From Sialis fuliginosa (Eukaryota; Arthropoda; Insecta; Megaloptera; Sialidae): a stretch of 64,000 nucleotides of DNA. The notes beneath the pieces are model-generated. The model was not told the origin of the DNA and ran no database searches. It was given only the letters and a program-made list of their open reading frames with translations. The stretch lies in NCBI GenBank assembly GCA_961205875.1, contig OY540813.1, positions 10,573,001 through 10,637,000 of the forward strand, in the 5' to 3' direction. Both the position numbers and the translations under genes were made by a program. Positions 12,549 through 59,157 of the stretch are shown piece by piece; within the stretch, counting starts at the first letter, position 1; every line of letters begins with the position of its first letter.

Positions 12549-13085
12549 ATTTATATTATTAAATACAAAACTAAATATTAGATAATTATGTAAGATTTAT
12601 TACACTACTTATGATTTTTCTTTGTTAAACCGACTCTCGTAGAGGCATTTATAATTTCATAAACATTAAAAATTTATGCTGAAACCGACCCTGTTCAAGC
12701 ACTGTACTTCCGGGTGACCCTGAATATACATTGATTTTTCATATTACGGGTTGGTCTATTTTTTGGGAGAATATACTTTTGTATGTACCTTTTCATGTAA
12801 CAATTTCCTTAAATTTAATACTACATATTTAAATAGTAACAGAAAAACGTTTTGGAATTTTCATTCTTAACTGTCAGAATAAATTTTATAACCTTAAATC
12901 GTTCCGGTAAAAATTCATTGTTGAATATTTTCATTGTTTAAAATTAATTTATATTGTTAAAATATAATTTTCATGTAATTGTAAATAATTTGTTTGTTAT
13001 TTATACCTATCATTGTCATTAAGTGCATAAATTTATTTATTTAGTTTTACTGATGTAAGTAATAATTTTATACTTTTTTTTACAG

Positions 13086-13801
13086 GACGCTTTTCAACCT
13101 CGAGTCCCTATGGATTTCTCTGGAGGTGAAGGTTTCATTGTAAATGATAAAGAAGAAGCTCGTGCGATTGAAGTCGGAGAAGGTAGTTCTTGGAAGAGAC
13201 GCTGGAGACCACCAATGAGGTCGAATTCTTCATCTCCAGCTGAAGACAAAGATTCAATGATCAATAGAGTCCATATCAATAAACCATGGTTTCATAGTGG
13301 TTTAACAAGGGACAAAGCTGCAAAACTCGTATCCAAATATGGAACTGTCGATGGGTAAGTCATATTTTATAATATATTACCACATAAAAAGTCAGTAAAA
13401 AAACTGAATTGCACTTACACTCATTTCATTTTTTCGTATACTGTACCAAAATATCTCCTTCTAGCTAAAAAATGTTCAATCATATCATGCATTAGCTATC
13501 ATAATTATTAAATAGAATTTTTTTTAATTGCAGAGTGTTTCTTGTGAGAGAGAGCCGTTCGCACGCCGGTGCTTTTGTGCTTACGTACATATGCCAAGGT
13601 AAAGTAATGCATACGCAGATACAGACAATCAGAGATCCTGTCCAATGCACAAATGTTTTCTCCCTCGACGGTGGAAAAACCAAATTCTATGATCTCCTAC
13701 AGCTCGTTGAATTCTATGAATTGAACGCAGGAGGCTTACCTACCAGATTAACGCATTATATTATACAAAAGAATGACTACTCGCCGCCAGTTGGCTACTG
13801 A
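13086..13801 (+). CDS. Grb7/10/14-family SH2 adaptor, last two exons (partial)
   Basis: Two coding exons, 13086-13354 and 13534-13801, encode the C-terminal 178 aa of an adaptor that in this family binds activated receptor tyrosine kinases (insulin receptor and relatives) at the membrane. The first visible exon carries a BPS-like segment with MDFSG at its start, then the WFHSGLTRDKAAKL motif that opens an SH2 domain. The second exon carries FLVRES, whose Arg binds phosphotyrosine, a His in KVMHTQI, and the TKFYDLLQLVEFYELN stretch typical of Grb7/10/14. The exons join in phase 2 inside a Gly codon (acceptor CAG 13531-13533, donor GTAAGT 13355). Upstream exons for the usual Ras-associating and PH domains are not seen, so the gene continues left of the window or across a very long intron. 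The C-terminus ends soon after the SH2 domain, as usual. AATAAA words at about 14133 and 14291 are candidate 3' processing signals. Exact paralogue within the family is not assigned. Confidence 0.85.
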
Positions 13802-27700: not shown

Positions 27701-29973
27701 AATGAGATTGACAAGATGAGACAGTCAATAACAACTAAATAATAATGCTTATGAAATATCATGTAGAAGACCAAATCAACTAATTTTTGGTATACGTTAG
27801 TTTTAAATCAAGTAGGACTCAATCCCCAATGTCATTCCAAAATTTGAAATTTTTTTGTTCATTACTACACCTCTTGTTACATCTATCCTGGGACATACTG
27901 TATATTAAGGAACTTGTCAGTCTTGAATTAACCTTTTATTTTTGCTTCTTTTTAGAGAAGAACGAGACGCCAAAGTAGCCGCTCGTATTGCAAAACGAAT
28001 AGAAGAAGAGGAAGAAATAAAACGACATTTAATTGAACAACGTGATAAAGAAATCGCAAGAAGACTTTTGGTAACTAATTTCTTCAATAACAACTGCATT
28101 AAAGACAAAATTAATAAGTGTGTATAATTTATAGAATGAAGAACGAATTAAAGTGCTAGAGAGAGCACGAATAGAAAATGCACAATATCCTGACACCTCG
28201 AATCATTTAAGATCTGCTCATTCTCATCGTAGACAAGCGCCTGCAATGCCTTTACCTGGTCAATATGAACAAATATCATTATGTTCATCATCGCCGCCGC
28301 CACCTTTACCGGAGAAAAAAGCACCAAAACCAAATTATATAAATGTGCCTATAAATAAGGGTGGATACAAGCCTGAAGAAATGTTGCATGAACGTCTTAA
28401 CCAATGTTCTTTGGATGATGTTGGTGTGCCTGTTGATGAAATTGAAGAAAGGAGATTACAAGAGTTGAAAGATGCTGTAAGTCATGTTTATATTTCTTTT
28501 ACAACAATAAAGAAGGACAGCTCAAATTTGTATCTGTGTCAGTTTGCGGGTGTTCTCTAGTGCATGGTTTATTTTACACATGACTAGAGTGACACTCGTA
28601 GATTGATTCAGAACTCTCTACAATGTTTAATGCTCTAGGTAGAAGTTCTCCATAAATTAATCATTTTTGATTGTATTACACATACCACACATATTGTAAT
28701 TTTAATAATTGTAGGAACTGGCACGACAGTTACAACAGTTAGAAAGTGAGAATGAAGCTTTACTTCAGTTAAACAAGGATAGATTGTTGGCAATCGAAGC
28801 GCAAGATAAAGAACTAGCTCGCGTTTTACAAGAAAGGGTAATCATTTCTATTGATTATAATTATTTTATTTTATCATCTATTAACCGTTATTTATAGGAA
28901 CGTGCAAAAGCAAAGAGAGCACGTGAACGAGCAAAACAAAAAGCTATAGCAAAAAAACAACAACGCCAGGAAATGTCAGGGCAAATATCTCCTGAAGACT
29001 CATATTCCGATCCAGTTGATTTGATCCCATCTCAACCATTAACAGAACCAGAACGTGTAGAGTTTCCGAGTCAAAATTTAAAACATAATTATTCGTTATC
29101 GACAATAGAAGACGATGTGAATTATAGCTATCCTATAGATGAAATTCCGGGATCTGGAAAATTAAAAAATGTTAATAGACCAAGTCAAGATGAAATTGTA
29201 GATGTGAATGTCCAAAGACCCGTCCACGGTGATATAATAAGAATTAGTCACGAAGAGAGAAAGTTAAAGAATGCAAATAAACCGAGCCAAGGTGAATTTC
29301 CTTCACCTCATAAACGTTATGTCGAAGACCCTTTTAATATATCTAGTCGTAAAAACGGTTCTCAGTGGAAACAGGAAGAAGAACACAGAACAAATTATAG
29401 AGTTAATGATTCTCCTCAAAAATATACGCATAACGATCATAGCAGTCCTAGTAAGAAGCGTGGAGATGCAAGTTTACCAAATAAAATGAATCCAATGTCA
29501 TCCTCATCTCCATCTAAATATATGACAGAGCCTTCCATGACAAGACCGACTCAGTTAGATTTACCAAAGGCAGTTGGAGATCGAATGAATATTGCAATGG
29601 CAATAGATCCAACGTACCGTCATTCAACTATTTGCAGTCCTCAGGATGTAACAAGTAGCAGTAGTATTAGCTCTCCTTCAGGAACTTTACCTTCACCATC
29701 AGGTAAAATATAATATTGATAAAAACAGTTATTTAATAACATTCAAAAATTATTTTAATTGTTATAATATTAGGTTATAATGTAAAAAACTGATTAAAAC
29801 TAGCATAGGTAGGTATATCATATAATACAAATTTTACTCTAGATTTGTCTGAATATGAAGAAGACACAAGCCCTGTTCCACCATATATGCCTATTCAAGG
29901 ACAACGAAGAACATTTTCTCTTGAGAAGAAACAAAAGAAAAGTAAAACTAAAGACGGATGCAAGCAACAATAG
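24747..29973 (+). CDS. CCDC50: CCDC50 (Ymer) homologue
   Basis: Eight coding exons (24747-24810, 25939-26001, 26854-26992, 27956-28070, 28135-28476, 28715-28837, 28898-29702, 29843-29973) join in frame to 593 aa. Human CCDC50 is a cytosolic ubiquitin-binding effector of EGF receptor signalling and NF-kappaB control. The N-terminus matches it well: VCREWLVREDGALAYKLQNEE (about residues 22-42), then EISQHLSGNKNRN, which parallels human EIEHHLASNVQRN. Ubiquitin-interacting (MIU-like) helices are visible as EDGALAYKLQNEE, RDKEIARRLLNEER (about 117-130) and QDKELARVLQERE (about 272-284). A basic Arg/Lys/Ala helix follows, then a long Ser/Pro-rich C-terminal half that looks disordered. The third exon uses a CAAG acceptor at 26850-26853; the alternative AG four bases later gives the wrong frame. 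The ATG at 24747 is chosen over an out-of-frame ATG at 24739 because only it reads into the conserved domain. Longer than human CCDC50, mainly through the tail. Confidence 0.85.
27075..27295. repeat. degenerate repeat of the 'GGGTTGTCCGTAAA' type
   Basis: Within CCDC50 intron 3, the words GGGGTTGTCCGTAAACTATG, TTTTTGACCCACACC and TAGATGTCACATATTATT follow the order of a widespread arthropod DNA repeat with pyrimidine-rich (CCCTCCC) interior. I recognise the pattern but cannot name the superfamily. Confidence 0.4.
27374..27902. mobile_element. TA-flanked Tc1/mariner-like MITE in CCDC50 intron 3
   Basis: Inverted ends TACAGTGTGTTCCATGATAG (left) and, as complement, TACAGTATGTCCCAGGATAG (right) bound 529 bp, with TA at 27372-27373 and 27903-27904. 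A second inner inverted pair of about 35 bp (CTAACGTATACCAAAAATTA and its complement near 27775-27805) extends the foldback. It lies about 50 bp upstream of the acceptor of exon 4. No transposase frame. Confidence 0.6.
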
Positions 29974-31084: not shown

Positions 31085-31448
31085 GTAGAGATGTCAAATT
31101 GAGTGGTGTATACAGGCCTTAATATTTCAAATGTATTTAAAGTTGTATATATGTAAACAAATTTCAAAAATATTTTTATACGATTTTAGTAATCGATATT
31201 CGAAACTAATTATAAAATTCTTTAATAATTAAAGAATGAAGGTAAAATTTAAAAATATATTTTATAAATAACTTTAATGAAAATAATACATTGTGAGGTA
31301 CAAAAGTTAAATATAAATAGTTTTACTACTAAAAACTTTTACTAACATATAAATACATAAAATATAATATTCTACATTTTGACTAATATGGTTTTATTTC
31401 AAATTCATTTTCATTAAACAATATTATAAATACACATTAAAATTAACT

Positions 31449-34400
31449 TCAATTTTTAGAACGCTTAGAAGCTGCCCTAGTACGTCTTACAGGCACTTCT
31501 ATTTCTACAGTTTCAGTATCTAATAACTTTTTTCGTACAGATTTCGAAGACTGTCCTTCATTATTTGTTACTGTTTTTTTCACAGTTGTCGATTTATACA
31601 TTTTCGGTTCTAAAAATAACATTTTACTACAACTTGACGATTGATGATTCAAGTCCTTTTTGGGCTTTTTCCGAACTTCAGTTTTAGGCGTGTATATTTT
31701 AAACTTAGACTCTTCTAAAATCCTACCAGGAGTTTTATTTTTGAAAAATTTATTTGATTTTATGGGTGTTATTAAAATAGTAGGTATTTCAGAACTTTTA
31801 AATAACCCCATTGGTGAATTTTTCGATTCTTCATCACTTTTAAATGTTACCTTTGGTGAATAAATATTTAAATTATTCTTATCATTCAAAGTTATACTGT
31901 AAATTCTATCGCATAAGGTTTCAGTTTCATTGACAATATTTGCTTGTAAAATTGATTTGTTTAAATCAATTGCATGTAAAATTTTACTGTTCACTATTTC
32001 TTCAAAACCTTTGGCAGATTCTAATACCTCAATTAATAAATTATGTGCTTCGAGATTATTTTTTAAGATTATACTGTCAGCACAACTTGTAATAAAAGTA
32101 AAATAACTTATCATTAAAGGAGATTTGTAAAAACAAGATAAAGATCCAGTTGAAAATTGAGTATCTAATAACGAAAGCAAATTATTTTCAAAGATCAGAT
32201 TTTGTTTAAGCATTATTGAATTATATAATGACTTAATAGCCATATATGAATTTAAACAAATATCACTGTATTCCATTTGAATGGAAATATGAAAGCATTC
32301 AAAAGTTAGTTGTTGGTACATGATATTAGAACAATAATAACAGAAACAATTAATATGTTTTAAAAAATCTACCGTGTCAGCTCTGTTTGACTTAACTATA
32401 TCAAAATCAACATCATTCAAACACAATAATGTTTTCATGTGTTTAAATTTTATGTGACAATCATCTAATAAAATTCTCATGATATCGATCTGACTCATGA
32501 GATTTAACAATTGGCTTGTACGTAAGGGAAGAGCCAAATTGTGTGCAATTCTCACTTGGAATGATAATAAATGGTAAGTCTCTCGGGTTAAGTTCAAACT
32601 GATGTAAATATTACTTAATTCAACAGCAAAACTGAACATTTGGTTTATCTGTTTGACGTTTACATGGATATGATATTTTTGCGAACCTAAAAAACATAAA
32701 TTTTTTTAATTTAAAATAAATATCGATCAATTAAAGTACTTACTCATTTTCTTGAATAGCTTTATAATCTTGCCAAATATCTTTAAACTTAAATCAAATG
32801 TTTTATTATGATCTTTAATTTCCAGAGAACAAGGTAAACGAAAATATTTCAACTGTAAATAATTTATTTTTATATCGATCCATGATAAATTATCATTATT
32901 ACTATCAGCTCTTTGATTCAATGCATCTTCAAAAATAGTATATCCTAAATCGTATTTTTTATTTAAAAAGCAGCTAATACTTTTGCTCAACTTTATTGAT
33001 AACATCAATTCTTCACACGATTCTTGATCAGTGAAATCATTTATTAATAAATCCAATTTTTCTCTAACCCATTGACCTAGTTCTGAATCATAGTCAATAT
33101 TTTCTAAAATCATATTTAAAGACTTGATCATAGCAGACGTATCATTTAAAATTTTACCACATCTATAAAATAACAAATTTGTTCTCAATTTCATTATATC
33201 GTGGCCGTGAAACTCATAAAATGCAATCACGCATTCTAAAATATGTATAGTGTTGTTCTTTTTCAAATCATATGCAATATTTTTAGAATCCTCTTGTAAA
33301 ATCAAGTGCCAAATTTCTACTGCTTCATCTAAATAGCTTAAAATTTTAGATTCAGTTACAACATTTACGTTTTTTGATACAGATTCATTTCTAATTTCAT
33401 CATTCGTCTGTATATGTGCTTTCCTCAATATAATAGAAGTATCTGGTATTTCTTTTCGTATTTCGTACATGACCTGTTGATATTTACAACAATACATATT
33501 TGCCAAAAGTAGTTTGTTAGTTAAAGACTTTTGCTGAAAAATAAAAATAATTTAAAAAACAATTATAGATAAATCATACAATTTAAAATTTACGTACAAG
33601 CATAAGCAGTTCTTCAATTGTTTCATACATTAACGAAGCAAGGCACTCATCTTCAATTGGAATTATGATGTCCCACATAAGTATATAACTTCTAGCTTTC
33701 TCAACAACATCCGTACAATATCTCATCAAATCTTTCCATGTTGAAACCATACAACTTTTGTTTTGCCAAAATTGTTTATATGCCTCAAGTTCTAATAACA
33801 ATATCTTTATTACGTCAACAGTTTTCAAATCAAAATCATCTTTTATGTTTATAATATTCAATTTTTTAGATGTGAGTGACTGAATAATGTTGATATCCTT
33901 TATTTTTTCATTTTCCTCATTAATCGATCTGTATTTTAAATTCAAAATACATTTTATTATAGTTTTTCTGCTTGATTCGTACTTAACAAAACAAAAAGCT
34001 AAAGGAACTAGACTCTCTTCATATTCTTTTATTTCAAACAATGCAGTTGAATATTTTATTAGTATCGTTATTATGGATGATTCTACAGTTGTAATATTGT
34101 CCCCAAATGTTTTTTCCATTTTAAATATATAATTACAAAACTGTACACACAATGTCTTAACGTCAGCATATAAATTATGTTTTGATAAGAGGTTTATTAT
34201 GTTTGAAAACATTTTGATAATATTTTCATTCATCATTTGCCAAACAGTACATTTTAATTCACTGATTTGAAGTGATTTTAATATTTCAAGTGCTGTTTTC
34301 ATGTACGGTAATAATGAATCAGAGTTATCTAATTCATACATAAATGACTGTTGAGTAAACTTTATTATCGATTTTGAAATATCATAAATTGAATGAAAAG

Positions 34401-35586
34401 ATGTAAAACAATTTTTATCCGAAAAATAAATGCAATTTTCAATTCTTGTGTCTTTGATTTCTTCAGCAATAAGTAATAACATTTTTGATAATTCCAATTG
34501 TTTTTTTACAGGCATATATTTTTTCCAGTCTTCTTCTTTCAATGAAAAGTAATTATGATTTATGTAACTATATAAAACTGTAGCTAATTTTACACACATA
34601 TATTTGAAATTTTTTGTTCTTTTATATTTTTTAATTGAATTGGATAGATACTGCTGTGATTGCTGAATTGTATTAAAATTATTTTTATAATTTGTAGTAT
34701 AAAAATCAGTCGTTTCAATAAAAATATTTAAACATTTTGAATTATCACTTGATAAATATTTTTTAACCATATCTTTCAACATGCTTTTACATTGGTCAAA
34801 ATTGTTCAACGTTATCTGAGATTTGTTTGATACGAACATTGTAATTATGTTCAGTAAATTATTATACATATTCAACTGATTTTCTATGGCATCTGTATAT
34901 TCACAATATAGAATTGTAATAAAGGCAGTAAATACATTTTCCTTTTGTATTAATTTATTTATTTTTGATTGATATTCGATCAATAACAATAGTTTACATG
35001 CATTTTCAATAATAATTACTTTTGATGGATTTGCCATGGAATAGAATTTTAAAGTTATTACTGTTATCTCTATAATCAGTTTAGTCTCGATTTCATTCTT
35101 AATTTCAGTACAAAGTTTCTTGTTTATAAAATTAAATGTACTAGCGTAAAAAGATTGATATATATTTTTAAGCTCATCTTCAATTGAACTTAGTGGATTC
35201 CATGGTGGCAGTAAATATAATGACAGCTGTGTCATTTCTTGATAAAATCCCTTAAATATAGAAAAGTATAATTTGCTATAAATTCTAAAAAAGCTTTAAA
35301 TATGTATACTTACATTTTCCATTAAATTTTGGTAAATAAAATAAACGCATTTTAAATACTTGCTTTTCTCATCAACAGTAAAACTACTTATATTTTCACA
35401 ACATAGCAAGATAAATTCACAAAGTTCCTTACTTAAAATGTTTGGAGTTTTTATTAACTTTTGTATTTTGATTAACATATATAAATATTTGGGAGTTTTT
35501 TGATTGACAAATATTTTTTTTGCTTCTTTTAAAATTTTAGATGCATTGCCATTTTTTATTTCGTCTAACCAAGTGTCGTACAGCAT
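31449..35586 (-). CDS. separase N-terminal-like alpha-solenoid (Three rows-like)
   Basis: Four coding exons (35586-35314, 35250-33598, 33533-32744, 32686-31449) join in phases 0, 0 and 1 into a 1317-aa protein. The first ~1150 residues are nearly all helical repeats without catalytic motifs. Segments such as EAVEIWHLILQ, NYLQLKYFRLPCSL and LRTSQLLNLMSQIDIMRILL resemble the TPR/ARM-like superhelix of separase by eye. The last ~170 residues are basic and disordered, with Thr/Ser-Pro sites (NSPMG, ITPIK, KTPGR, YTPK) and end at RRTRAASKRSKN. There is no C-terminal peptidase C50 domain: the frame stops at TAA and nothing like a His/Cys protease follows. In Drosophila the separase function is split between Three rows (regulatory, 1379 aa) and Sse (protease); length and layout here fit the Three rows half. 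If correct, it would bind the protease and securin to control sister-chromatid separation. Very AT-rich codon use, as in neighbours. Another alpha-solenoid scaffold remains possible. Confidence 0.5.
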
Positions 35587-51300: not shown

Positions 51301-54300
51301 GAAGCTCAAAAAACAGTATACCTTGCTCTTAAAGTGGCCAAGACTGGCGCCAGTACCTTAGTATGGCAGATAAATTTTTTTATAAATCACATAAAAAACA
51401 GTAAACTGAAGTCAAAATTTGTTTAATAACAAAATAAGTTTACGTAGAAGGACTACCTCAACTAATCTACATAGACAAAATTAACTTCCCAAGAAATTCG
51501 CGTAAATGCGCTACTAACATTAATTAGTTACATCTAATATTATTTAATATCTATAACAACATGTATATACGGTACATATATGATATTAATAACAAATTAG
51601 TTTTATATACATAAGTTATTTTTAGTTTTTTTACATTTTATGGTCTGTTTCTTCCAATCAGAGCATGCTTAGTATTCTAAATTGAACTTCATTCTTAACA
51701 GATGTGCATTTCGTGAACGCGGTCAATGTGTTAATATAAACAATTTATTATTCTAAACTGAACCTATATATTACAATACATTTTTGCTAACATTAAAAAA
51801 ATATATGTTTAATCGTTTCTTAAATTAATAGAATGAGCGAGTTTCTAATCAATTTGTACACTGTCAAAAATTTTTTTAGTAATTTTACAAAAATGTGTAG
51901 GAAGTTTTTACGCACCACAATTTTCGGAATTATGGAACACAGTTTTGTAAATTTACTATACAATTTATCACAACTCAATTTTAAACTATTACAAATCATC
52001 TGTCGCAAAATTACTAATCATTTACTAGACTTATGTTTAGTAATATTACTGTACATTATTCGTAATTTTACTAAGCCAAATGTTTCTAATAATTTTAGTA
52101 ATTTTACAAAAATGTGTAGGAAGTTTTTACGCACCACAATTTTCGGAATTATGGAACACAGTTTTGTAAATTTACTATACAATTTATCACAACTCAATTT
52201 TAAACTATTACAAATCATCTGTCGCAAAATTACTAATCATTTACTAGACTTATGTTTAGTAATATTACTGTACATTATTCGTAATTTTACTAAGCCAAAT
52301 GTTTCTAATAATTTTAGTAATTTTACAAAAATTTATTGTAATTATACTAGACAATTTATACCAATTTAGTTTAGAAAAATTACAAACTATTTGTTGCAAT
52401 ATTATTAACCTTTATTAAAAAATTGTTTAGTAATATTACAATACAATAGTCGGAATTTTACTAAACAAATTAGATTAAATACATTTAGTAATTTTACAAC
52501 CATATATCGTAATTTTTCAACCCAACTAATACCAATTTAGTTTCGAAAAATTACAAACTATTTGTTGCAGTATTGAATTTTTACTACCCAACTTACATCA
52601 AGTCAATTTGAAAAAAATACAAACCGCTCGTTGCAATATTACTATGCATCGGGATATAACTTGCATAGCTTTATTTCAATATCAGACTGTAATTTTACTG
52701 AAAAAAATTGTTAAATCAATGAATGCTACAACAGCGTATTTTAGTGTTAAATATAAAATATTTATTAAATATTAATTTATTAATTATTTAATTAACAATT
52801 AAACATATGTCATTAATTATAACAGTGTTATCAATAATTTATATTATGAAAATAATAACATAATTTAATGCTAACACAAATTTTAAATTTTTTTTGAAGA
52901 TTATTCTGACGTTTTGATTGCCACATAATTAATTGCCAAATCACGAGTAATGTAGGCACGGAGTATCTTTCCAATATTCTTGGTTATATCTACTGTCTTG
53001 TTTATTTAGCATAACAATTTGTAAATCTAAAAAAAGAAAATTATTATTCATGTCTTATAAACGAATTATATAAAATAGGGCTTATATAAAAAAATAATTT
53101 TATTTGTGATTACTTACCAATTTTTTTTTAAAATCAACATCATTTTTAATTTTATCATTAAATTTAATAAAACTTTCTTCATTTTGTAGTGGAAGAATCA
53201 TGTCAAATTCACTCTCAGAGTTACTGATTTCGTCACTCAAAATGCTTGTTGAATTATGAAGTTTTTCAATGACATTTTCAAGGCTTTGTAATCTGGTTGA
53301 ATAATTGGTTAATTGACTTCCTAAATTTGACAAACGTTTGCCGATGCTTACAAAACAGCTCGATATGAATTGATGCAGATCTTCTGTAACAAAAAAAATC
53401 ACGTTTCCAATACACATTAAAGAAAAAAAAAACGATGTATGTTTTTACCTATTGTCATTGGTTGATTTGCACTGGTCTCGAGTTTTTCTTCAGCTTTTTT
53501 TTTTTACAATCCTTTTTGGATTTAATATATTGTTTGGATCTAATCCGTTAGTGTTGTCTTCATCACTGGAAAATTCCGTTGAAGTTGACTTAATGTCAGT
53601 GTCATCAGATGGGTGACAACTTGGGATTGAAATCGATTTAGAATTCAATTTTTTTCTTTTTGTGTGTTGACTTTTAGGATTAGATGAATCTAACATTAAA
53701 AAAAATATATTTGTTGCATATTTATAACAAAAAATTTTACCAAAAAAAATTAAAACTACTTACGAATTTTTATACCAAGATCGTCTGTCCATTTCAATGC
53801 TGCTTGACTAAATTGTTTGTTAATGAGCTCTTTATTCTTTGCAACAAATTTGCGCTTCAGAGCCTTCTTATCAGTATCTGCTTTTTTTTTGCAGATTCTT
53901 CATTTGCTGTCGAGTATACATATGGTTTTGTTTCTAACTCAACGATTTTATTTTCAGCTTCTTTATAAGTATCTAAAAAATTGATTAATAATATGTCAAA
54001 ATATTTTTTTTGCTCATCAAAAATTAATAAAATGTAAAAAAATTAATATTGTGGTAAAGAATTTATTTTAAAATAACATATCATTACTTACGAGCACTTC
54101 CGCGAATATCCACTAGAAATGTTGGCTATGTAGATTTGGGTGGTTCTAAATTTTTCACCATTTCTTGCAGTTCTTCGCATACATTTGGATCATCAAGCAG
54201 GCCTGGCATATATTTGCAATATACCTTATCAGAATCTTTTTCAAAATGAAGCCATGTATATATAATATAATATAATATAAGACGATATTTATGATCCATG

Positions 54301-57300
54301 TCTATAAAAAACAAAACAAAAAGTGGGTATGTGTACTTATGTACACGCGTTAGAAGTTATACTTATTTGTCGTGAAATTTTAAAACACTTATCAAAATTT
54401 GATTACACATTTCAAATATTAAAATCTTAGTTTTGGAAAAAAATTATTTGAAACAAGAAAATATTTCTTTTGCCTTAAAATTTTAACTCCAAAAATAAAA
54501 ATCATTTGTTTAGACAAATGGCTACAGCTTAAAGATGTAAGTAGGTGAAAAAGTTACCTGAATTATAACAGATATATATTCAATAAACGTTAAAAACAAT
54601 TATTGGATTAAACAATAGAATTATAAAAAATCACTTGTAGCAGCATCAATCTTTACACAACAAATTTTTAATAACGACAGTTCAAAAATCGTATTATTGC
54701 TCATACGCAGTAGCTTAGCATCGTGAGAAAATAAAATGTAACAAAATTTACCCCTTCCGCCAGCGCGTTCACATGAAACTATGTTCTATACCAGTATTTC
54801 TCAAACTTTTTGAATTGAATCACTCATAATTGTGATTAATAGCGAAATTTAATATCAATAATAATTAATAACAAGTTAATAACTTATCTCGAGTACATCT
54901 TTGAACAAAATATTATTTGTATATTTTTCGACATTAACTTAACTAACTAATTGAGTTTACTAAAAATATTTTAAATTAAATTTAATGTGATGAGTGAGCG
55001 CGGCTTTGTTTTGATGTTGGTCAGTACTGAAAATACCATTTCGTATAATAGGGCGAGCGGATTACAGCTATTTCGAGTACACTAACCAACCAATCGACGT
55101 TCTAGTGGCTAAAAATGATTTTATTAAATTCTTTATATTTTTCTGAGAAAAAACATCTATATACATGATATTTTTTTATGCGGTCCTTCAATAGGTACAC
55201 ACATTTTTTTGTTTAATAAATCTAAATCTGCATTAAAAAATCTGAAAAAATTATGTAAGCTTCATTGGATTAAAATAAACATTTTTTGTCTCATAAACTT
55301 TTTTTTTAAAGCTATAGTTTTGAAGATAAAAAATATTTTAACTTTAAAAATAGCGAAAAATTCGTATATTTGTGAATTTTTTTCTCGGTAACTAATTGTT
55401 CAATCAGAATAAAACATAAACAAAAAGAATCAGCCGACTTTAAACTATAATTAGATTTTTTTTCATTTTGATTATTACTGTAATTAAATGTAAAAACTTC
55501 ATTAGAGCCGAACTCACTCCTTGCGCCGTAAATCGATACCATGGCTGGCTACAATTTTCGTTTAATAGTTGAAATATTTAAATACTGGGATGAAAGTTTC
55601 AATAAAAACACTTTAGAATATTTTTATTGCACATTTATTTGTTACAATTATTTTCTTTATTGTTACACTTATCAAAACATCTACAAACTGAACAACATTT
55701 TAAATCTAAATCCAAACAAGAGCATGTTTTAGCTGTACAAGGAAATTTTCCGCAACAAGAACAGAAATATTTTTTGTAGATGTTCTGATAAGTATAATAT
55801 TATAATAAAGAAAATAATCGTGACAAATAAATGTGCAATAAAAATATTCTAAAGTGTTTTTATTGATGCATTCATCCCAGTATTTAAATATTTCAATTAT
55901 TATTAAATGAATGTTGTAGCCAGCCATGGTATCGATTTACGGCGCAAAGAGTGAGTTCGGCTCTAATGAAGTTTTTACATTTAATTACAGTAATGATGAA
56001 AATGAAAAAAAATATAGTTATAGTTCAAAGTTGGCTGATTCTTTTTGTTTTTGATTTATTTTGATTGAACAATTAGTTTCCGAGAAAAAAAATCACAAAT
56101 ATACGAATTTTTCGCTATTTTTAAAGTATAAATATTTTTTATCTTCAAAACAATTGATTTTAAAAAAAAGTTTATGAGACAAAAAATGTTCATTTTAATC
56201 CAATGAAGCTTACATAATTTTTTCAGATTTTTTAATGTATATAGATGTTTTTTCTCAGAAAAATATAAAGAATTTAATAAAATCATTTTTAGCCACTAGA
56301 ACGTCGATTGGTCGGTTATTGTCATTTCTAAGCGAGCTAGACTCGATAATCCGCTCGCCTATAAATAAGTTGGTTGCAAATGGCAAGAGAACTGTCATTG
56401 TTAATTCAGCGAATAGTGGACACTGTTTTCACACCAAGTAAAAAAGAATTGTTTGCTTACTAAACTCGGTTTATGTCATCAATTTTTCTGCGACCTTCCT
56501 AGGAGTCGCGACCCACACTTTGAGAATCACTGTTCTATACTTGTGTCGGCATGTCAAAAGAAACGCAACAATGATTTTTTCTATGCTGGTCGGGACTTGC
56601 AAATTCGAATAAAATTAAAGGTTGTTTTACACCGGCATATGGAGCATTTATAAAGGTTGTTTTAGGCATTTTGACCAGTTTATATATAATTCATAAATAA
56701 TAATTAGCAAAGATTTACTTACTTTCAAATATAAAAAATGTTGATATGCAGATTTGAACATACCCTATTACACTTACAATTAAATTTTATCACTATTTTT
56801 TACCACAGTGAATAATTCGGTTCTTTCACAATTTTTTTTATACACTTGATCGATTCTATGAGGTTTTTTTTATAAAACTAACATATTTCATATTCAGAAA
56901 CAACATGTATATTAAAACATTTTAATAAAAAAAAAATATTTTTTTATAATCTATACTTCATACTTGCAATTCAAGTATAAATGTTTGCTACTAATTTTAC
57001 TTAGAACTGCATTCAAATTAAATTTTAAATCTGCATAAGTCACAATTTTATAAAAATGCAAAATAAATATACCAAGTTTTATACTTGAAACTACACAGCA
57101 GAATTAGAAGATTACATAAAACTATATGATTGTAAGAGACACTAGTAAAAATATAAACAAATCTAAAGTAATTAAAGTTTTACAATTTTTCAATCACTTT
57201 TTGCAATTTGGATTACGTATTTCAGTTAGTCATTTTTTTGATAACTGTAGTAAGATTAGACTACAAATAGGTATAGAAATTTTACAAAATTTTAGACTTG

Positions 57301-59157
57301 AAATTACAAACAAGAATTGTAAAAATACATAGCGCTCATGACTTGAAAGAAATTTTGTAAAAATACAAACAGAATTTTCAAAAAAAAAGTAATGATTTGT
57401 AAATTTCCTGTAATTGTAACTGCAAGTTTCGGTTAGTAATTTTACTATTAATCTTGGTAAAATCAAAATCCGAATATGTGTAGAAATTTTACAAAGTTTT
57501 AGACTTGAAATTACAAATAAGAATTGTAAAAATACATAGCGCTCATGACTTGAATGAATTTTTGTAAAAATGCAAACAGAATTTGAAAAAATAAATAATG
57601 ATTTGTAAATTTCCAATCACTTCTTGAGATTGTAATTGCAAATTTTGGTTAGTAATTTTACAGATAAATGTGGTAAAATTAAATTCCGAATATGTGTAGA
57701 AATTTTACAAAGTTTTAGACTTAAAATTACAAACAAGAAATGTAAAAATACATAGCGCTCATGACTTGAATAAATTTTTGTAAAAATGCAAACTGAATTT
57801 GAAAAAATAAATAATGATTTGTAAATTTCCAATCACTTCTTGAGATTGTAATTGCAAATTTTGGTTAGTAATTTTACAGATAATTGTGGTAAAATTAAAT
57901 TCCGAATATGTATGGAAATTTTACAAAACTTTAGATTTAATTCTACAACTTTGAATGGTAAAATTACAACAAGTTTCTGACGAATACAAAAAATTTGTAA
58001 AATTGCAACCTGCTTAGTACTCTTGTTATTACAAATTGCAATATTACTACGAATGCGTTTGAAAATTCCAATACAATACGAGAGTTTGTAATTTTACAAA
58101 GCAACTGCTTAGTAAAAATGTAGTAAATTTACAAAAATTTTTAACAGTGTATATTTCTTATTGGAATAATTTCATATTTTAGTAGTTTTTTGTGAAAGTT
58201 GTGGTTTTTATGAGTACCTATAGGTATAAATATTGTTTACTCAAACGATAAAACATAATTTTTTAGTTAACTGTTAAAACATTTTATAATACAGGTACAG
58301 TCATCATAATGGGGAGCTGGACAGGGCTCTAGCCTGGGAGACCGCGGTTAGGGGAGGTCAATCAATTTTTTTAAGTTGTTAAATTAACTATTAGTAAGTA
58401 CCTTCGAAAAAATTTCATAAATTTATTATTGAAAAAGGGTACTTCAGAAATTCTGCCATTGAGGACTCAAGGTAAGATGTAGGGACACCCTCAGTCATAA
58501 TAATGTTCAGTCCTTTTTAGTCTTCTTGGTTTTATAGTTAAAACAATAATCAGAAATTCATAAAATGATATATTATTAAACTTAAAAATTCTCAAGAATC
58601 TTAAAAAACTTATTTCGCTATTCAAAAAAATCTTACCTGAGCTAAACTAGCGTTGTGGACGACCACAAAAGCTCCAAAAACAATCATAAGTAATCCAAAT
58701 AACATTTGTAACACGCAAACGTACACTATGGCATTTTTCTCACGCCTCCCCGACCGGAAATCGGAAGTAGATCCACTCACTTCGTCTAAAGGAAGTTTCA
58801 AATCCGGAGATTTGTTTATTAACATGTCAGTGGACAATTTTGTTGATATTGTAAGGTTGGCTAAATTTGAGTTATTTAATTTTAGTTGGTGTTCTGAATT
58901 AGTCGACTGTTTGTTCGTCATTTCATTTTCATTGTTTGGATTTTCTTTCATAATGGTGGTTGTTTCGACATAGCTTTTCTCTTGAAGATCTTCATTATTT
59001 TTAGTCGATGGCACTTGTTCAGAGGAATCGTTATTATTTTGTAGACAATCAAGAGTTCCAATTGATGTCATCATATCGTTGCTACAGCTAACGATATTAT
59101 CACTTGTACTATTCATACCACCGTCGTCCATTTTGCACGATTCAAAGAACGTTCATT
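36335..59157 (-). CDS. tetraspan membrane protein with PPxY motifs (ENTREP/FAM189- or CD20-like)
   Basis: Five coding exons on the minus strand (CDS 59131-58637, then 44261-44037, 42375-41995, 37629-37504, 36622-36335), all phase 0, encode 504 aa. Residues 1-132 are polar and Ser/Asn-rich, probably cytosolic. Four membrane spans follow at about 134-157, 168-185, 200-224 and 258-283. The first two carry LQMLFGLLMIVFGAF and VWSGLVAIAASLAGL, the pattern of CD20-like proteins. The cytosolic tail has two PPxY motifs, PPLY (339-342) and PPGY (388-391), binding sites for WW domains of Nedd4-type ubiquitin ligases. Four spans plus PPxY is the layout of ENTREP (FAM189) proteins, which activate such ligases; insect Sanpodo is an alternative that I cannot exclude. 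The coding exon extends to an acceptor at 59158-59159, so a noncoding first exon lies upstream, and a short upstream ORF (ATG AAC GTT CTT TGA) precedes the start. Intron 1 is 14.4 kb and full of transposons. The stop codon overlaps an AATAAA. Confidence 0.6.
36880..37132 (-). mobile_element. MITE family B copy 2
   Basis: Inverted relative of 16763-16993, in the last intron of the tetraspan gene. Ends are CGCTGGAACTTAACAAAAATGG and TTTTCAAGTGCCAGCG. The interior is unusually GC-rich (ACGACGCGCGACGGCCGTCG). No coding capacity. Confidence 0.5.
37231..37442. mobile_element. hAT MITE
   Basis: The 212-bp element starts CAGTGGTTCCCAATCTTTTT and ends CATGTCGAAAACCACTG. Flanks TTCTAATT (37223-37230) and TTCTAATG (37443-37450) match at 7 of 8 positions, fitting a hAT target duplication with one later change. 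It sits in the tetraspan intron just downstream of exon 4. Confidence 0.65.
39844..40074 (-). pseudogene. mariner/IS630-type transposase fragment, frameshifted
   Basis: The 76-codon minus-strand frame contains SQYDRVWSARIEDIPEDK and GVKINVKYYLEEVLKKNV, both characteristic of the central catalytic region of mariner-type transposases. Between them the expected VMVWGAIS core is found only in another frame, so a frameshift breaks the reading frame, which is restored by a second one before KGVKIN. Start and end of the enzyme are missing. This is a dead relic in the tetraspan intron. Confidence 0.7.
40963..41027. mobile_element. 65-bp hAT-like terminal-repeat scrap
   Basis: CAGTGGCGTCC at the left and ACGCCACTG at the right are inverted termini. 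The flanks TTACACGA and ACACACGA are similar at 6 of 8 positions. This would be an extreme internal deletion of a hAT-like element. Confidence 0.35.
44391..45404. mobile_element. hAT-like foldback element with ~460-bp arms
   Basis: The element starts TAGGGTGTGCC and ends GGCACACCCTA, and is flanked by a perfect 8-bp direct repeat ATATTTAT (44383-44390 and 45405-45412). Arms of about 460 bp (44391 to ~44857 and ~44940 to 45404) are almost exact reverse complements around an ~80-bp centre. The 8-bp duplication and TAGGGTG-type terminus point to a hAT-mobilised element. There is no coding capacity. Since it lies inside a transcribed intron, the pre-mRNA would form a very long double-stranded hairpin. 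Confidence 0.85.
46930..49163. mobile_element. 2.2-kb element with inverted termini
   Basis: The left end TACCCAGTAATCGAAAAAGT and the right end ACTTTTTCGATTACTGGGTA are exact reverse complements, and similarity continues inward (AATCAAACAGAAT). Subterminal words around ATTCCGGAATCTGAATTCC recur in altered form near the right end. No transposase-like frame is visible, so it appears nonautonomous. Flanks do not give a clear target duplication, so the superfamily is undecided. Confidence 0.6.
50425..50486. repeat. 62-nt hairpin with 23-bp stem
   Basis: Two 23-nt arms (50425-50447 and 50464-50486), with cores GGCTTCTGGGTGTAA and TTACACCCAGAAGCC, pair at 22 of 23 positions around a 16-nt loop. 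Size and stem quality are compatible with a small-RNA precursor, but a truncated inverted-repeat element gives the same picture. Confidence 0.45.
50850..51358 (-). mobile_element. TA-flanked MITE, family A copy 3
   Basis: The ends AGGTACTGGCACC and GGCGCCAGTACCT are bounded by TA (50848-50849 and 51359-51360). The interior shares TTGATGACAATCGGCCAAT and TCATTTTGTAATCATTAGCA with the other copies. Confidence 0.65.
51878..52315 (+). repeat. two perfect 219-bp tandem copies
   Basis: The unit beginning AGTAATTTTACAAAAATGTG at 51878 recurs at 52097 and starts again at 52316, where it diverges after about 15 bases. The two full copies look identical base for base. Because 219 is divisible by three the block stays open in one frame, but the peptide is a low-complexity by-product. 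It forms the left subterminal array of the CACTG element. Confidence 0.8.
52901..54302 (-). pseudogene. DUF4806-type gene, decayed
   Basis: Five minus-strand exons with normal splice sites can be traced (54302-54092, 53972-53764, 53689-53449, 53383-53118, 53026-52901). The last two carry the DUF4806-like pattern: LPLQNEESFIKFNDKIKND, then NIGKILRAYITRDLAINY shortly before the terminal stop. Function of this domain is unknown; such proteins are numerous in insects and often repeat-linked. The copy is broken: an in-frame TAG in the first exon (after EPPKST), one-base errors in the A-tracts at about 53881-53889 and 53500-53510, and an in-frame TAA in the last exon. The first exon begins at an acceptor, so an upstream exon is missing or unseen. 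It sits within the CACTG element and within the tetraspan intron, on the same strand. The homopolymer shifts could be assembly errors; the two stops are harder to explain that way. Confidence 0.6.
54792..56532. mobile_element. hAT element with perfect 8-bp TSD
   Basis: The element begins CAGTATTTCTCAAACTTTTT and ends CACTTTGAGAATCACTG, flanked by identical TTCTATAC at 54784-54791 and 56533-56540. The termini are standard for a ZBED-type hAT. Its centre is occupied by a foldback element (55052-56359), leaving about 260 bp on the left and 170 bp on the right. No transposase remains. Confidence 0.75.
55052..56359. mobile_element. foldback element, family C, ~1.3 kb
   Basis: The ends GGCGAGCGGATTA and TAATCCGCTCGCC are inverted, and almost the whole length is a palindrome centred near 55735. 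Each arm carries the same short open frame starting MAGYN (55541 rightwards, 55927 leftwards) followed by EIFKYWDE. The left arm has roughly 90 extra bases near 55165-55250. Flanking TATAATAG and TATAAATA are only roughly alike, so exact ends are uncertain. A relative is at 20505-20650. Confidence 0.65.
57240..58000 (-). repeat. right subterminal tandem array, ~207-216 bp period
   Basis: The marker AGCGCTCATGACTTGAA recurs at about 57331, 57538 and 57754, with similar surroundings each time (GAAATTTTACAAAGTTTTAGAC, CAATCACTTCTTGAGATTG), and a fourth partial unit follows. The unit length is near that of the left array. Open frames crossing it are repeat by-products. Confidence 0.7.

Follow-up and report, generated by a model that had tools for sequence, protein, structure and literature searches.

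A probable Three rows-type half of separase, encoded apart from a short Sse-type protease gene, in a genome that is very unlikely to be that of a fly

Separase occurs almost universally and in most accounts consists of a single chain, as in human separase (ESPL1, PDB 7nj1), in which one polypeptide continues from the N-terminal half into the protease domain. In Drosophila, the two halves are separate proteins: Three rows (THR), with a length of about 1380 aa and without a protease domain, and Sse, a short protease of about 634 aa. THR is part of a complex with SSE and PIM (PMC4847790) and is itself a substrate of separase (PMC7529219); in an alternative view, Three rows supplies part of a securin made of two pieces (PMC1557759). 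Recent papers, including one of 2025 (PMC12540686), describe the split of separase as dipteran. Here, we describe a gene that, judged from its predicted protein, very probably encodes the Three rows-type regulatory half of separase, together with a gene on another chromosome of the same assembly that would encode the Sse-type catalytic half.

The stretch of DNA analyzed (the window, 64 kb) corresponds to C5:10573001-10637000 of a 392 Mb assembly of 20 contigs. The gene of interest lies on the minus strand of the window, from 35586 to 31449, in a model predicted from the DNA with splice sites picked by eye. Exon 1 (35314..35586, aa 1-91) begins with the ATG at 35586 and joins the next exon in frame from a GT donor. 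Exon 2 (33598..35250, aa 92-642) is an open frame of 551 codons encoding a helical segment, which forms the N-terminal part of the putative regulatory half of separase. Exon 3 (32744..33533, aa 643-905) contains the best match to human separase (aa 655-876 against human residues 684-915), and exon 4 (31449..32686, aa 906-1317), at whose start codon 906 is split by the intron, encodes the end of the helical part, a CxCxxC motif, a basic tail, and the stop.

The three introns (63, 64, and 57 bases) are all of the GT..AG type, and the four exons join in frame into 3954 nt, encoding 1317 aa plus the stop codon. The longest open frame around the gene extends over 570 aa from stop to stop, in a stretch with a GC content of 24-26%, whereas the maximum frames in 500 first-order Markov resamples of the region averaged 87 and never exceeded 182. 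A candidate polyadenylation signal, AATAAA (31393..31398, minus strand), is located 51 bases 3' of the stop; it is weak evidence alone, because 198 AATAAA occur on that AT-rich strand of the 64 kb. These results confirm that the gene is real, and that its four exons join as cleanly into 1317 aa as the preliminary description had claimed.

The predicted protein is mostly helical by periodicity. Residues 1-1160 contain 2% Pro+Gly, and their hydrophobic residues recur with a helix-like spacing: compared to 30 shuffles, the periodicity stands out with z = 3.6 at 100 degrees and z = 4.0 at 110 degrees. The tail lacks this periodicity. The C-terminal 187 aa have a basic composition (37 K+R versus 21 D+E) and carry five [ST]P sites, three of them TP, as compared to three [ST]P sites in the first 1130 aa. 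The earlier label of a basic, Thr-Pro-rich tail is thus fair, if modest in degree. Five matches to [DE]xxR (the E/DxxR separase cleavage motif) are present in the 1317 aa; the motif is so short that a few are expected by chance, and these sites were dropped as evidence.

The protein ends at its stop codon with no protease domain in the same chain, such as a full-length separase would carry. No Peptidase C50 was found in the three frames of the minus strand from 31448 to 1700, and a tblastn search of the whole 64-kb window with the human C50 core returned nothing significant (best E = 0.59). These results bear out the earlier statement that the protein stops without a protease domain, and in the minus-strand frames and the tblastn search no downstream C50 exon was found to which the gene could be spliced.

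Several other features were observed in the window. A gene on the plus strand (open frames 28135-28557 and 28898-29710) runs toward the separase half, and a mir-279 microRNA precursor (28531-28614, plus strand; Rfam RF00754, 64.4 bits) lies within this gene or nearby. At 13059-13798, also on the plus strand, exons encode BPS and SH2 domains, a combination known from GRB7/10/14 adaptors. Two tandem repeats, one of 219 bp (51874-52332; 2.1 copies, 100% matches) and one of 216 bp (57225-57940; 3.4 copies, 88% matches), overlap long open frames and look like satellite arrays.

Beyond the window, a search of the same genome for the Peptidase C50 family yielded one locus, C8:19229625-19230320 (87.9 bits, E = 9e-23); the search returned two rows, the second nested in the first, which count as one locus. 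The gene model built there has nine exons (C8:19227648-19230652) and encodes 590 aa, including YCGHGSG and LFGCSSVGL, in which the His and Cys motifs are intact; we take GHG and GCSS to be the catalytic motifs of separase. Residues 18-513 of this protein align with human separase 1579-2081 with a score of 447, where the sequence used for human residues 1686-1995 is provisional, and the alignment begins directly after the human inter-domain linker.

In addition, in-frame stops precede the ATG of the C8 gene. On the same strand, a gene that by eye resembles a cytochrome P450 terminates 1.2 kb upstream of the C8 gene. The stretch directly upstream of the short separase gene (C8:19210001-19226431) holds a cluster of P450-like exons, likewise recognized by eye, on that strand. 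The gene model, the upstream stops, and the P450-like neighbor together indicate that the C8 gene, the sole C50 gene found, is a short one. The short, separate C50 gene for which the preliminary description had recommended a search is therefore present in the same genome, and no full-length separase was found elsewhere in the 392 Mb assembly.

The two genes resemble the Drosophila pair in their division. Like THR, the window protein is a protein of its own, is of similar size, and lacks a protease domain, and the protease gene of its genome is short; unlike THR, it comes from an organism that is very unlikely to be a fly. This comparison with THR covers size and domain content. Like Sse, the C8 gene encodes a short C50 protease that begins after the linker and carries GHG and GCSS. 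It lies outside the window, on another chromosome from the regulatory half. A single assembly thus contains the two halves as gene models of their own, each with a clean end, on different chromosomes.

Whether the pair lies outside flies depends on the source organism. To our knowledge, telomerase is absent in Diptera. In the present assembly, TTAGG/CCTAA arrays were found at the start of 10 of the 14 chromosome-size contigs (C2-C9, C12, and C13), and no such array was seen at the start of C1, C10, C11, and C14. The pea aphid genome paper attributes a telomerase gene and TTAGG repeats to non-dipteran insects (PMC2826372). Taken together, these points make a fly a very unlikely source. A contig of 15,590 bp (C20) is mitochondrial-like, with the ancestral insect gene order (genes identified by eye) and the anticodon GCT in trnS1; this gene order and the mir-279 precursor in the window are compatible with an insect. 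The gene order and the anticodon do not single out an insect order. The COI of this contig seems unlike that of aphids, and an aphid was rejected as the source for that reason; a hemipteran, as suggested in the preliminary description, is one candidate. The proposal of a Three rows-like half-separase, apparently outside flies, is supported by the short C8 gene and the TTAGG arrays, along with the targeted alignment described below.

The separation of the two genes may be real and still have arisen independently of the split in flies. Three papers date the fly split to the evolution of Drosophila or to Diptera (PMC4847790, PMC4735636, and PMC12540686), which favors a second event here, and we consider an independent origin a substantial possibility that falls somewhat short of probable.

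For the helical part, a targeted Smith-Waterman comparison (BLOSUM50) aligned aa 655-993 of the window protein collinearly with human separase 684-1058, with a score of 98. When the helical part was shuffled, 1 of 400 local shuffles (62.5 ± 7.8) and 1 of 400 class-preserving shuffles, in which the hydrophobic pattern is kept (64.6 ± 8.2), scored as high. The significance depended on the matrix: with BLOSUM45, the observed score was reached by 4 of 400 local and 9 of 400 class-preserving shuffles, and with BLOSUM62 the alignment was weak (22 of 400 and 24 of 400, respectively). When the human sequence was extended to residue 1568, z ranged from 3.0 to 4.1 over four settings, and the score was reached by 1, 3, 0, and 2 of 200 shuffles. 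For the matched regions alone, the score of 98 was reached by 1 of 1000 shuffles.

The collinear placement was also distinct from the alternatives. In a 7 × 6 grid of 290-aa windows (42 pairs), the collinear cell scored 77 and every other cell 60 or less. The reversed human control scored 51 as compared to 98, and with looser gaps 136 as compared to 191 for the forward sequence. A semi-global alignment gave a weak signal, its score of 265 standing above the null (210 ± 22) but little above that of the reversed protein (242). Exon 3 alone gave a Smith-Waterman score of 91, a value attained by 4 of 5000 local shuffles and by 3 of 3000 class-preserving ones. Compared with human separase, its frame ranked first (91, z = 6.0; the second scored 64) in a set of 290 ORFs, each 60 aa or longer, drawn from the window and from 17 further stretches of the same genome. 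Neither aa 1-654 against human 1-683 (32 of 300 shuffles reached the score) nor the whole of aa 994-1170 (95 of 1000) gave a significant match.

Within aa 994-1170, DFLKHINCFCYYC aligned against NFLSHSPTCDCSLC of human separase. The CxCxxC motif in this region (CFCYYC, aa 1019-1024; 32331..32348, minus strand) was spotted by eye and then counted. It occurs once each in the window protein, in human separase 1-1568 (CDCSLC at 1146), and in worm SEP-1 1-817 (CVCNVC at 448), where the Cys contents predict 0.03, 0.05, and 0.01 occurrences, respectively. In the window protein, the motif stands C-terminal to the aligned block, in the same order as in human separase, and by eye about 150 residues separate it from the basic tail, a length similar to that up to the linker in human. 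Worm SEP-1 1-560 gave no significant alignment with either human separase (37 of 200 shuffles) or the window protein (78 of 200).

These comparisons, namely the targeted alignment, the rank of exon 3 among the ORFs, and the motif, support homology between the helical part of the window protein and the N-terminal half of full-length separase. The case combines the targeted test, the motif, and a C50 gene that is devoid of that half, each moderate alone. The resemblance to separase noted by eye in the preliminary description is significant in targeted alignment, although searches across whole databases do not detect it.

In the database searches, only chance matches were obtained for the joined window protein in Pfam, for exons 2-4 in NCBIfam, and for the joined protein, exon 2, exon 3, and 339 aa of exon 4 in the PDB, where the joined protein did not return human separase even at E = 10. 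For relatives of exon 2, the genome_contigs set gave nine pattern matches, none of them confirmed, and the viral_contigs set gave none. As a control, human separase 1-1087, in a sequence that agrees with PDB 7nj1 from end to end, was used as the query. It matched 0 Pfam families and, up to E = 10, returned human chains only from the PDB, missing worm 5mz6 as well as 5u1s, which we take to be yeast separase. The C50 core as a query recovered 5mz6, 5u1s, and 5fby, the last presumably Chaetomium separase. The human control indicates that, at such distances, the N-terminal half of separase escapes ordinary sequence search, and because the human half is equally blank, the blank Pfam and PDB results for the window protein say little.

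The window gene might instead encode a basic-tailed helical-repeat protein unrelated to separase, the true N-terminal half being located elsewhere or lost. No database profile lends the protein separase support, and the similarity is significant in the targeted comparison only, in a matrix-dependent manner, as such a protein would lead one to expect. However, the collinear alignment with human separase spans more than 300 residues, exon 3 is the best of 290 ORFs, CxCxxC stands in the human order, the sole C50 locus found in the genome lacks an N-terminal half, and a database blank is expected even of a true member of the family. We therefore regard an unrelated protein as improbable. A single-gene separase whose apparent split reflects misassembly or wrong exon joining is scarcely credible even for a single assembly with splice sites picked by eye, since the halves sit on contigs of 35.4 and 23.9 Mb, the window gene closes with a stop and an AATAAA behind it, the C8 gene is preceded by in-frame stops and the P450-like gene, and a misjoin would need to have placed new start and stop codons precisely at the linker.

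For the preferred reading, in which the two genes encode the halves of a split separase, a mechanism can be proposed by inference from Drosophila. The helical half, the window protein, would fold around the C8 protease half into a heterodimer and would carry part of the securin-binding surface. Once securin is destroyed, the complex would cut the cohesin kleisin at anaphase. The basic tail with its [ST]P sites may be a remnant of the separase linker. Relative to human separase, the window protein would correspond to the N-terminal half, with aa 655-993 collinear with 684-1058 and CxCxxC in common, the human protein differing in that its single chain continues into the protease domain.

Split separases as a kind are known; a case outside flies appears to be new. 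Among the matches listed in the literature search, which covered the titles and abstract starts of largely open-access papers, none reported a split separase outside flies; annotated orthologues may nonetheless be present in gene databases such as OrthoDB without having been pointed out.

We lean slightly toward the view that the split is old in insects or recurrent, and that separase here, and perhaps in many insects, is an obligate two-gene heterodimer whose halves are encoded on different chromosomes. On this view, the printed statement that the N-terminal domain is fused in non-dipteran species would fail as a generality. A split pair outside flies would make the age and the number of such splits directly testable with existing insect genomes, and natural two-chain separases would offer a way to ask what role the regulatory half plays.
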